Shown in pieces: positions 44,038 to 52,327 of a stretch of 64,000 bases of DNA. The position numbers and the translations under genes were made by a program. The first letter of the stretch is position 1, and the number at the start of each line of letters is the position of its first letter. The notes beneath the pieces were generated by a model. It did not search any database. It was not told the DNA's origin and saw only the letters and a list, made by a program, of their open reading frames with translations. The DNA is from Epilithonimonas sp. JDS (GTDB lineage Bacteria > Bacteroidota > Bacteroidia > Flavobacteriales > Weeksellaceae), in NCBI RefSeq assembly GCF_021261315.1, contig NZ_JAJSAX010000001.1:744001-808000 (forward strand), in the 5' to 3' direction.

Positions 44038-44334
44038 TTAAAAATATCTCGGAATATCTCGACTTCCGTGGAGCACTCTTACAATTCGGATATGATTGTC
44101 CAAAATCCTGTAGAAAATGAGATGATGGTCTTTTGGAAAGCTGTACAAACCTTTTTTTATTTCGTTTCGCGTTTTCCCTAATTCTGGATTTGTAAGCAAA
44201 CTTTGAAAAACGTCTTCAATCTCAGTGAGATATTTTTCCGCTTGTTCAAATCCAAATTCATTCATCGTATAATCGAAAATATCTTCCAAATCTTCATCAG
44301 CAATTTCTGATAGAATGTAGAATTCTTTAGACAT
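44038..44334 (-). CDS. RelE/ParE family toxin
   Basis: 98 aa. The ParE/RelE fold is supported by D-L-E-D-I-F-D-Y-T-M-N-E-F-G, A-E-K-Y-L-T-E-I-E, G-L-Y-S-F-P-K-D-H-H-L-I-F-Y-R and the end R-I-V-R-V-L-H-G-S-R-D-I-P-R. By family it poisons DNA gyrase or cuts ribosome-bound mRNA; the pairing with a ParD-like antitoxin favours the gyrase type. It overlaps the antitoxin stop by 8 nt, as in true TA operons. Confidence 0.92.
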   Translation of the reverse strand: MSKEFYILSEIADEDLEDIFDYTMNEFGFEQAEKYLTEIEDVFQSLLTNPELGKTRNEIKKGLYSFPKDHHLIFYRILDNHIRIVRVLHGSRDIPRYF

Positions 44335-46073: not shown

Positions 46074-46631
46074 TTATATATCATCTTTATCTTTTTCATA
46101 ACCTTCGTAATAATACGACTGCTCAATCCCTTTAAATATAATCTCTCTATTTTCTACCTCATCTGTTAAGTTTTCCTTAAGCAAAGTTCTCAATTCCAAA
46201 TCATTGATTGGACTGCGCTCCATCGACTGTAAATACAGTGTTTTATCTACAAATTGCCAGTTGACCACTTTTTTTAAATTAGACTTTAAAATCATATCCA
46301 ACCAAATCCGCATCGTTCTGCCATTGCCTTCCATAAAAGGATGTGCGATGTTCATCTCCACATATTTTGCGATGATTTCTTCAAATGTATTTTCAGGCAT
46401 TTGTTCGATTTTTGCAAGAATCTCATTCAAATACAAAGCTGTGGCGAATCGGAAACCACCTTTGGAAATATTCTGAGTGCGTATTTTACCCGCAAAGTCA
46501 TACAATCCATCAAATAAATATTGATGAATCTCTTGCAAACCTTTGGTTGTACCAATTTCTAGTTTTTCAATGGCGCCACTTTCGAATAAACGGTACGCAT
46601 TTTCCAAACTATTTTTGTCTATGTTTTTCAT
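46074..46631 (-). CDS. Fic family protein, class III (auto-inhibited AMP transferase)
   Basis: 185 aa. The Fic active-site loop H-P-F-M-E-G-N-G-R is at residues 97-105, with catalytic His97. The flap region (Y-D-F-A-G-K-I-R) is at about 44-51. The C-terminus contains S172-Y-Y-Y-E176-G, a perfect match to the inhibitory [S/T]xxxE[G/N] motif that in class III Fic proteins (NmFic) lies C-terminal. It would transfer AMP (or another nucleotide group) to a protein target, with its own C-terminus blocking activity; no antitoxin gene is adjacent, which is normal for class III. The target is unknown. Neighbours are the TA module and the DNA repair pair. Confidence 0.92.
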
Positions 46632-50408: not shown

Positions 50409-50426
50409 TAGCTGGAATCAAATTAT

Positions 50427-50462
50427 AAAAAATGCCCTTGAAAATTTCAAGGGCATTTTTAG
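50427..50462. terminator. Bidirectional terminator after sucC
   Basis: AAATGCCCTTGAAA and TTTCAAGGGCATTT are perfect complements, with A-run before and T-run after. Serves sucC (+) and the convergent PIN gene (-). Confidence 0.9.
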
Positions 50463-50504
50463 TATATTTATTTCTAAAATTATCCGATTATTATCATCTT
50501 GTAA

Positions 50505-51047
50505 TTAGGGTTTTATTATATTAATTTGCGTCGAATTGAAAATATCAAAATCTTTGTCATCTGTAACAAAAAACCAATTGTTTTTTTCACAAATATGCAT
50601 AAAATAACAATCATTAAAATCTAAAAAATTATTATAATAAGTCAATACTGAATCTAAATCTATGCTATTGTATTGATCATTATACTTATCACTTACTTTT
50701 TCAATTTGCTTAATTGCAGATGAAATTGCTGCTCTAGTGTTTTTGCATCTTTCTGTTTTAAAATAATCCTTTTTAAAGTTCGATAAAATATTACCTTCCT
50801 GTTTGTAAATATCAAAATCTAGTCTTAATGATGCATTTGAAAACTCCGATAAAATAAGGCTATTCACAATAATAGAACAATTTCTAGATAATAAGTCCGA
50901 TAAAAAATTGGAAAGTATTTGTTGTTTTTTTGCGTTAGTATTACCTATTGGACAAAACAAAAACATCCAAATATTATTATCAAAAAAATACGAATTATTA
51001 GATTTTATAGAATGAGAACTGATATTATCCATATTCTCAGGCACCAT
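50505..51047 (-). CDS. PIN domain protein (putative ribonuclease) of the ATPase-STAS-PIN cassette
   Basis: 180 aa. The PIN acidic residues are in place: D23 in Y-F-F-D-N-N-I-W, E68 in L-I-L-S-E-F-S-N, D146 in L-D-F-N-D-C-Y-F, and D163/D164/D166 in V-T-D-D-K-D-F. Such a constellation usually binds one or two Mg ions for RNA cleavage, as in VapC toxins and some effector nucleases. The gene overlaps the preceding STAS-like gene by 11 nt and is the last gene of a three-gene cassette; no VapB-type antitoxin is beside it, so it is probably controlled by the STAS/ATPase part instead. Codons are AT-richer than sucC. Confidence 0.85.
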   Translation of the reverse strand: MVPENMDNISSHSIKSNNSYFFDNNIWMFLFCPIGNTNAKKQQILSNFLSDLLSRNCSIIVNSLILSEFSNASLRLDFDIYKQEGNILSNFKKDYFKTERCKNTRAAISSAIKQIEKVSDKYNDQYNSIDLDSVLTYYNNFLDFNDCYFMHICEKNNWFFVTDDKDFDIFNSTQINIIKP

Positions 51048-51390
51048 AAAAATTAGAATTTATAAAATTATCTAAATCATTTCTTTCTTTAAAATACTCT
51101 TTTGCTCTCTCTATTACTAATTTAAAAAGTGGTAAATCCTCTTTTTGAACATTAGCTAACTCTAAATGTTTAGATAAAAACTCTTGGTTATATAAACTAT
51201 CATTACTGTAGAATTGCCCAATTGCAGCATTTAAAAACGCTGTAGTCATTAAAAAAATATCCGAGAAATCCAATTTAATATTTTTAGATTGGGAAAACTC
51301 CTCAATTATTTTTCTATAAACCAAATCTCCATCTTCCGTTTTGACAGCGAATTTAGAATTAATTAAGGTATGGACTGTTATTGTTTTCAT
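51037..51390 (-). CDS. STAS-like domain protein (DUF4325)
   Basis: 117 aa from ATG 51390; a TTG two codons upstream is less likely. The DUF4325 core K-L-D-F-S-D-I-F-L-M-T-T-A-F-L-N-A-A-I-G-Q-F-Y is present at about residues 39-61; in STAS-type folds a Ser/Thr in this region can be phosphorylated. DUF4325 proteins are commonly encoded next to a GHKL ATPase, which recalls anti-sigma / anti-anti-sigma partner switching, but this function has not been shown for the family. It links the ATPase gene and the PIN gene in this cassette and overlaps the latter by 11 nt. Confidence 0.85.
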   Translation of the reverse strand: MKTITVHTLINSKFAVKTEDGDLVYRKIIEEFSQSKNIKLDFSDIFLMTTAFLNAAIGQFYSNDSLYNQEFLSKHLELANVQKEDLPLFKLVIERAKEYFKERNDLDNFINSNFYGA

Positions 51391-51414
51391 TTTCAATGCA
51401 AATTTAAAATAAAA

Positions 51415-52318
51415 TTATTTAAAAATTTCATCAATATTTATGTCTTCAAATATTTCATCTTTGAAATAGTAAAATGTATCTGGATTTTGTAAATCAAATT
51501 CTAAGTTAACTATTGTTCCTATAAAAGAAAAATTTAAATCGGTCATAAATTTTTTCCCTTCACGAAGTTCCCAATAACCATTTGATGAGATTACTTGCAT
51601 ATTCCCTTTGCTAAGATTGATAAAATCAAATATTAAGCCTAAACCTAAGCCACCAGATATGTTTCCAGTTTTAGTTGTATTTCCAGAAACCATCGCCCAA
51701 TCAATACAATCACTAGATTTCATTGTTGAAGATTTAAAAAAATCTATAACGTTACTAACAATTGTATTTCCTGTATCTACGATGGTGACATGTAATTTTT
51801 TCCTTTGAGGGTAAAATTGTCCACAAGTATGAATGTGTTTACAATTTACCATGTGTTCTTGCATTTTCAAAAAGCTCATAAATTGTAAGATTTATTTCCT
51901 TTTGTAACCGTTTACTTAATTTTGGAAACTCCGCCTTTTCTAATAGTTCTTTTTGAATGTAATAATTATACTCTTCAGACTCTGTTTCTTTAAATTTTTT
52001 ATATGGTATTTGAGTCGAAAATTTATCATCTATTTTTTCAAAACCAAAATCAGTTAAAAATTGGTTTCTAATAAAAATATCATTTTTAATATTTTCTCTT
52101 TCGACAATTTTTACAATATTTTTTTTTAATTCTAAATCTTCAATTATTGCTCCTAAGACAGATACTAAATTTGCCTCAAACCATTTTACATTTTTGAAAC
52201 TTAGTTCAATTACGGAATTATAAATTGGAGATAACTCTTCATGAAATCTCAATAAAAGTTCATAACCTCCTATAGTAGAAGTAATTCTATTTGGAAGATA
52301 AAACTTATAAACTCTCAA
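51415..52318 (-). pseudogene. GHKL-type ATPase gene split by a one-base frameshift
   Basis: Two overlapping frames together form one ~300-aa protein. Frame 1 (TTG 52318 to TAA 51839) has a STAS-like N-terminal region, then ends shortly after the N box E-L-F-E-N-A-R-T-H-G. Frame 2 (open through 51415) continues H-I-H-T-C-G-Q-F-Y-P-Q, the D box V-D-T-G-N-T-I and the G-G-L-G-L-G-L lid. Removing one A from AAA at 51845-51847 joins them as T-H-G-N-C-K-H-I-H-T-C-G, giving a normal family sequence. It could be a mutation, a sequencing error or recoding. It starts 9 nt after the punA TAG stop and heads the STAS-PIN cassette. Confidence 0.82.
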
Positions 52319-52327
52319 TTTTTCAAT

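Follow-up and report, generated by a model that had tools for sequence, protein, structure and literature searches.

VapKSC, described by Chambers et al. (EMBO J, June 2026; PMC13373217; PDB code: 9z7o), is a defence system in which the STAS protein VapS restrains the RNase VapC until the kinase VapK phosphorylates VapS. For the Escherichia proteins, that paper demonstrates binding of VapS to VapC, toxicity that is relieved, loss of the binding when phosphorylation is mimicked, and protection against phage, and the C-terminal tail of VapS is reported to be what stops VapC; activation by single-stranded DNA and phosphorylation of VapS by VapK are not among the steps that it demonstrates directly. 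Here, a stretch of 64,000 nucleotides (nt) from Epilithonimonas sp. JDS (contig NZ_JAJSAX010000001.1, positions 744,001 to 808,000; hereafter the window) is analysed, in which three genes between sucC and punA are a copy of VapKSC, being a new Bacteroidota member of the system with a broken kinase gene. A preliminary description of the same DNA had presented the trio as an undescribed system, a reading that is rejected here because VapKSC has been in print since June 2026. In our view the locus is a vapKSC operon that was acquired horizontally and in which the kinase gene is disrupted, and we give this reading a probability of about 0.9.

Comparison with known systems

The window locus shares with VapKSC the gene order, a STAS-GHKL kinase, a STAS antitoxin with a conserved Ser/Thr and a C-terminal tail, and the acidic residues of the PIN domain, whereas it differs in that vapK is split by a frame slip and in that a Thr takes the place of Ser48 of Escherichia VapS. 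The order of ATPase, STAS-like and PIN genes, with an overlap of 11 nt between the last two, had already been given in the preliminary description and is borne out by the open reading frames and by the DUF4325 match of the middle gene (Table 1). Moreover, a family profile of VapS (8 rows, the window protein first) matches the solved Escherichia VapS (9z7o_A) with E 8.6e-22, and the corresponding VapC profile matches Escherichia VapC (9z7o_C) with E 1.2e-11. Window VapC reaches the Pfam PIN family with E 0.0081, short of the cut-off, and window VapS has no Foldseek match below E 0.001.

Residue conservation was observed in both proteins. D23 and D146 of VapC, named earlier as residues to mutate, lie in conserved columns and align with D28 and D154 of Escherichia VapC. 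Also, the phospho-acceptor column that holds Ser48 in Escherichia VapS is Thr in the window and Ser or Thr in 103/103 relatives (57 Thr and 46 Ser), and the VapS tail, counted after the last conserved Ala, is 21 residues long in the window and 16-39 in 103/103 trios.

Other described systems resemble the locus in part. CapK-CapS is likewise composed of a STAS-GHKL kinase and a STAS substrate, but CapK carries an N-terminal helix-turn-helix (HTH) and CapS a C-terminal winged HTH (both from PMC13373217), neither of which is present in the window proteins. The window kinase starts with its STAS domain and VapS stops 21 residues past the last conserved Ala, which sets the locus apart from CapK-CapS. 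SpoIIAB-SpoIIAA and RsbW-RsbV also pair a GHKL kinase with a STAS partner, with the same folds by model, whereas in VapKSC the output is a nuclease instead of a sigma factor and the kinase has a STAS domain of its own. VapBC has a PIN RNase toxin too, but here the antitoxin of VapC is a STAS protein under a kinase, and VapS reportedly leaves the metal in place (PMC13373217); the gene next to the PIN gene encodes a DUF4325 protein and not a VapB-type antitoxin, so the locus is not a VapBC pair. In the literature searched, PMC13373217 is the sole paper naming VapKSC, and no other relevant description of DUF4325 or of ATPase/STAS-like/PIN sets was found among the papers listed.

Table 1. Coordinates of the features in the window and, in the last row, in loci L039 and L049.
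Feature	Coordinates	Strand	Basis
vapC: PIN-domain RNase toxin, 180 residues	50505..51047	-	match to Escherichia VapC; acidic residues D23, E68, D143, D146, D164, D166
vapS: DUF4325 STAS-like antitoxin, 119 residues	51037..51396	-	PF14213 E 1.8e-11; match to Escherichia VapS
vapK 3' piece, other frame: GHKL G1 and G2 boxes, 154 residues; listed ATG perhaps unused	51415..51879	-	open reading frame, profile match
vapK 5' piece: STAS domain and N box of the GHKL kinase domain, 159 residues, TTG start	51839..52318	-	frame ends just after N box
Approximate site of the single frame slip splitting vapK	51835..51850	-	frames and profile coverage
AT-rich segment holding the cassette, between sucC and punA	50409..52327	.	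G+C; differing content in two relatives
Deaminase-VapK-VapS cassette, 3.3 kb	L039 5922-9193; L049 5969-9195		two genera, unrelated flanks

The split kinase gene

The STAS domain followed by the GHKL kinase domain, with no HTH, is spread over the two frames of window vapK, in agreement with the modelled fold of an intact relative. The first piece covers positions 3-155 and the second positions 151-286 of the 291-position VapK profile, and the two frames overlap by 41 nt. The N box residues E148, N152 and H156 are in the first piece, each conserved in 104/104 aligned VapK proteins, and the second holds the G1 (DTG) and G2 (GGLGLG) motifs. In Pfam, neither piece matches GHKL at E 1, and even the intact VapK of locus L005 reaches HATPase_c with E 0.0082, short of the cut-off. 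The column of W46 is Trp or Phe in 99/104 proteins, its match to the single-stranded DNA contact F54 of Escherichia VapK being positional guesswork. An uninterrupted kinase gene is needed for function and not for descent from the family, and window vapK is interrupted.

From the gene content and homology we infer that the products would work in the VapKSC manner. VapS would hold the VapC RNase inactive by gripping it with the STAS domain and by placing the C-terminal helix beside the active site. VapK is thought to be activated by single-stranded DNA arising from phage infection or DNA damage, and the active kinase would phosphorylate a Ser/Thr in VapS; VapC would then be released and cut RNA, so that growth stops and the phage is limited. 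The preliminary description had suggested that a signal alters the binding between ATPase and STAS protein and frees the PIN nuclease in a defence module, which agrees with the published model (PMC13373217); what needs refining is that the ATPase is a kinase phosphorylating the STAS protein, itself the direct antitoxin of the PIN nuclease. In the window, VapS and VapC would most likely form a locked complex deprived of its trigger, VapK being split inside the kinase domain. Because the frame shift affects vapK and leaves vapS and vapC intact, we infer that the switch is probably either stuck in the off state or no more than a relic.

Breaks occur in other trio loci as well. Of those examined, the window, L165, L167 and L174 have a split or cut VapK beside whole VapS and VapC, both VapK and VapC are split in L058, VapC is cut in L054 (9201-9554), and in L071 and L128 VapC lies at a contig edge; no split VapS was found among these loci. 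This pattern fits the idea that loss of the trigger is tolerated and loss of the antitoxin is not, with the reservation that the numbers are small, that VapK is the longest gene, that motifs of VapK or VapC had served to find the loci and that draft errors may contribute.

Three other accounts of the break have to be considered. It may be a sequencing or assembly error, the operon being intact and working in the living strain; this would suit a single draft assembly of 25 contigs with one frame slip only, beside vapS and vapC genes that are fully open with their key residues present. The slip does not lie within a long homopolymer, however, and the broken vapK genes of the other drafts (L165, L167, L174 and, with vapC also split, L058) make a real loss plausible, although those too may be draft errors, and on balance we find such an artefact doubtful. 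Production of VapK by programmed frameshifting could be imagined from the overlap of the two frames and from their joint coverage of profile positions 3-286, but of the trio-type loci examined only the window, L042, L058, L165, L167 and L174 have a split or cut VapK, with breaks at differing places, and the rest encode it in a single frame, which makes this explanation very improbable.

It is also possible, though again unlikely, that the locus is a decaying relic in which loss of the kinase came first and vapS and vapC are now drifting. The broken vapK itself speaks for decay, as does the scarcity of relatives nearby: in 22 other genomes of the genus, window VapS gives two weak matches only (E >1e-4, 22% identity), with the other genes absent there. 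On the other hand, vapS and vapC are open and their catalytic and phospho-site residues conserved, in proteins whose relatives share at most 50% identity with them; also, an unneutralised VapC would be selected against, and the vapS-vapC pair may be kept for that alone.

Genomic setting and spread of the trio

The cassette occupies window positions 50505-52318 on the minus strand, flanked by the convergent genes punA and sucC. The preliminary description had portrayed it as AT-rich, on one strand, adjoining punA and facing sucC, and the reading frames and base composition agree: vapK starts 9 nt past the punA stop, directly behind that gene, and the G+C content is 24-29% within the cassette and about 40-45% in sucC and punA. 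Matches to punA were obtained in 20 other genomes of the genus, each viewed with a flank of up to 1.5 kb. In two of them (L100 and L105), sucC lies about 0.83 and 0.93 kb beyond the 3' end of punA, with other content and no trio in between; in the remaining 18, of which L102 and L106 end at contig ends, sucC is absent from the viewed flank. Because the punA-sucC interval of L100 and L105 holds other content, the cassette is most naturally taken for an insert that was acquired at a variable site. A ParE-type toxin gene (44041-44334) and a gene for a Fic-family protein (46077-46631) are located within about 7 kb of the cassette, the Fic protein being the sole PADLOC match among the 10 nearby window proteins scanned (PDC-S04, E 7.8e-94).

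Rare co-occurrence of the three genes elsewhere had been named at the outset as a ground for doubting the grouping, and the opposite was found. An alignment search of genome contigs with the ATPase, from which the best 80 of 219 relatives were kept, gave all three genes in a common order and strand in 76; the exceptions are L039 and L049, which are devoid of the PIN gene, L042, with a cut ATPase only, and L043, at a contig end. With window VapS as the query, 6 of the 395 genomes of the order match at E 1e-5, namely its own and five others, all five with the trio. In viral contigs, 5/5 PIN matches are directly preceded by the ATPase and STAS genes, and two of three ATPase matches have the trio, the DNA of the third (L092) ending inside VapS. 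Among 59 related genomes searched at E 1e-3, VapS matches in four: its own, L002 with a full trio, and two without it (L003 and L004; E 6.4e-4 and 8.1e-4, 22% identity), which were dropped because neither ATPase nor PIN genes occur within 1.5 kb.

More broadly, an ATPase profile run against 395 genomes of the phylum at E 1e-15 matches 29, its own included, the closer ones being trios. VapS finds one plasmid, that of Deinococcus gobiensis, which carries the trio, and two phage records with partial matches. Overall, with hosts named after the record titles, VapKSC is found across many phyla, including this plasmid and two bins labelled archaeal; many of the relatives, these two included, are metagenome bins in which contamination is possible. 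The archaeal labels are Methanosarcinales/Methanosarcinaceae (L053 and L079), with the same caution.

More distant arrangements were also seen. L176, L178, L179, L180, L183 and L184 hold distant pairs of a GHKL and a DUF4325 gene, with no PIN gene found and with STAS tails of 4-13 residues, and in L182 (5908-7194) the two are fused into one protein of 428 residues, again with no PIN gene found. A GHKL protein of the wider family lies directly behind TniB and Mu-type transposase genes in L177 (5983-9583), with no STAS partner seen. Another distant-family locus, L181, ends at a contig end, and it and L184 match the VapK profile only in part. Finally, the VapK of L161 (5326-6882) has a long extension at its N terminus and measures 518 residues; Pfam at E 0.01 yields HATPase_c only.

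Proximity to type I restriction genes

The neighbours of the trio were counted on mechanical gene models, where one protein may score for several families, and the raw counts given here are among the 25 commonest families of each scan. Directly upstream of 101 trios, 8 neighbours have a type I specificity domain and 7 have ResIII, and the downstream neighbours of 97 trios include 5 with ResIII, 3 with HSDR_N and 2 with N6_Mtase; in a control of 84 genes more than 4.5 kb away, 2 have a specificity domain. Restriction families are thus counted more often beside the trio than in the control. For example, vapK overlaps by 4 nt a gene read by eye as hsdS in L053 and L068, and a gene read by eye as hsdR follows the trio in L050, L052 and L070; in these five loci, vapKSC seems to lie within or right next to type I restriction operons. 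The arrangement recalls PrrC, reportedly an RNase that a linked type I system keeps silent (PMC2610378). Window vapKSC is outside any restriction locus. No fourth conserved gene was found upstream of vapK, the near upstream genes grouping in threes at most. Among the distant PIN-less pairs, L178, L180 and L184 adjoin genes that, judged by eye, encode type I restriction subunits.

A variant with a deaminase

In the marine bacteria Mesoflavibacter zeaxanthinifaciens (L039, also L188) and Tenacibaculum skagerrakense (L049), a gene for a deaminase of 678-684 residues is followed by VapK and VapS, and no PIN gene was found in either locus. The deaminases match the PADLOC dCTPase profile with E 1.3e-114 and 2.3e-118 and match the Pfam dCMP deaminase zinc-binding region; 3/7 plasmid relatives are annotated as anti-phage deoxycytidine triphosphate (dCTP) deaminase. 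At E 1e-5, DNA similarity between the two loci covers the three genes (L039 5911-9177) and nothing else in 16.8 kb of each, so that the cassette is one unit in two unrelated sites. The protein identities are 65, 75 and 62%. The cassette is known from two genomes; a second Flavobacteriaceae query returned matches at identical coordinates and was at least largely the same draw. Two others of the 78 genomes in the genus of L049 have such a deaminase (51 and 45% identity) with no VapK-VapS within 1.5 kb, the single other genome in the genus of L039 has no VapK, and a single-protein scan of viral contigs for the deaminase found none.

In a quick tree of 52 rows, both VapK proteins fall among PIN-linked ones, beside L007, L035 and L036 (Shimodaira-Hasegawa approximate likelihood ratio test, 99). 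Their VapS tails measure 9 and 11 residues, versus 16-39 in the trios, and so effector and tail differ together, in two genomes of a single origin on the tree. The distant PIN-less pairs, however, are short-tailed as well (4-13 residues).

The deaminase is AvcD-like, as in AvcID, whose antitoxin is reported to be an RNA, AvcI (PMC10511110), but in L039 and L049 it shares one cassette with a VapK-VapS pair. This pairing was not found among the papers listed in the literature searched, which took in neither supplementary tables nor preprint servers, and the main text of PMC13373217 contains neither a deaminase nor Avc. We propose, at about even odds, that VapK and VapS make up a portable DNA-damage trigger to which other killing enzymes can be coupled. 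In the Mesoflavibacter and Tenacibaculum loci, VapC would have been dropped along with part of the tail that plugs it, leaving a mobile three-gene cassette in which the STAS domain of VapS restrains an AvcD-type deaminase in place of AvcI, and the kinase would release this deaminase to drain dCTP from phage replication.

Finally, with the window locus a defence system that entered the literature in 2026 gains a Bacteroidota copy, ordinary in kind, and the deaminase cassette is a lead worth keeping. If the proposal is true, a single kinase/STAS trigger would act through direct binding on two killing enzymes that are unrelated to each other, and the VapS tail would become a testable element of specificity.
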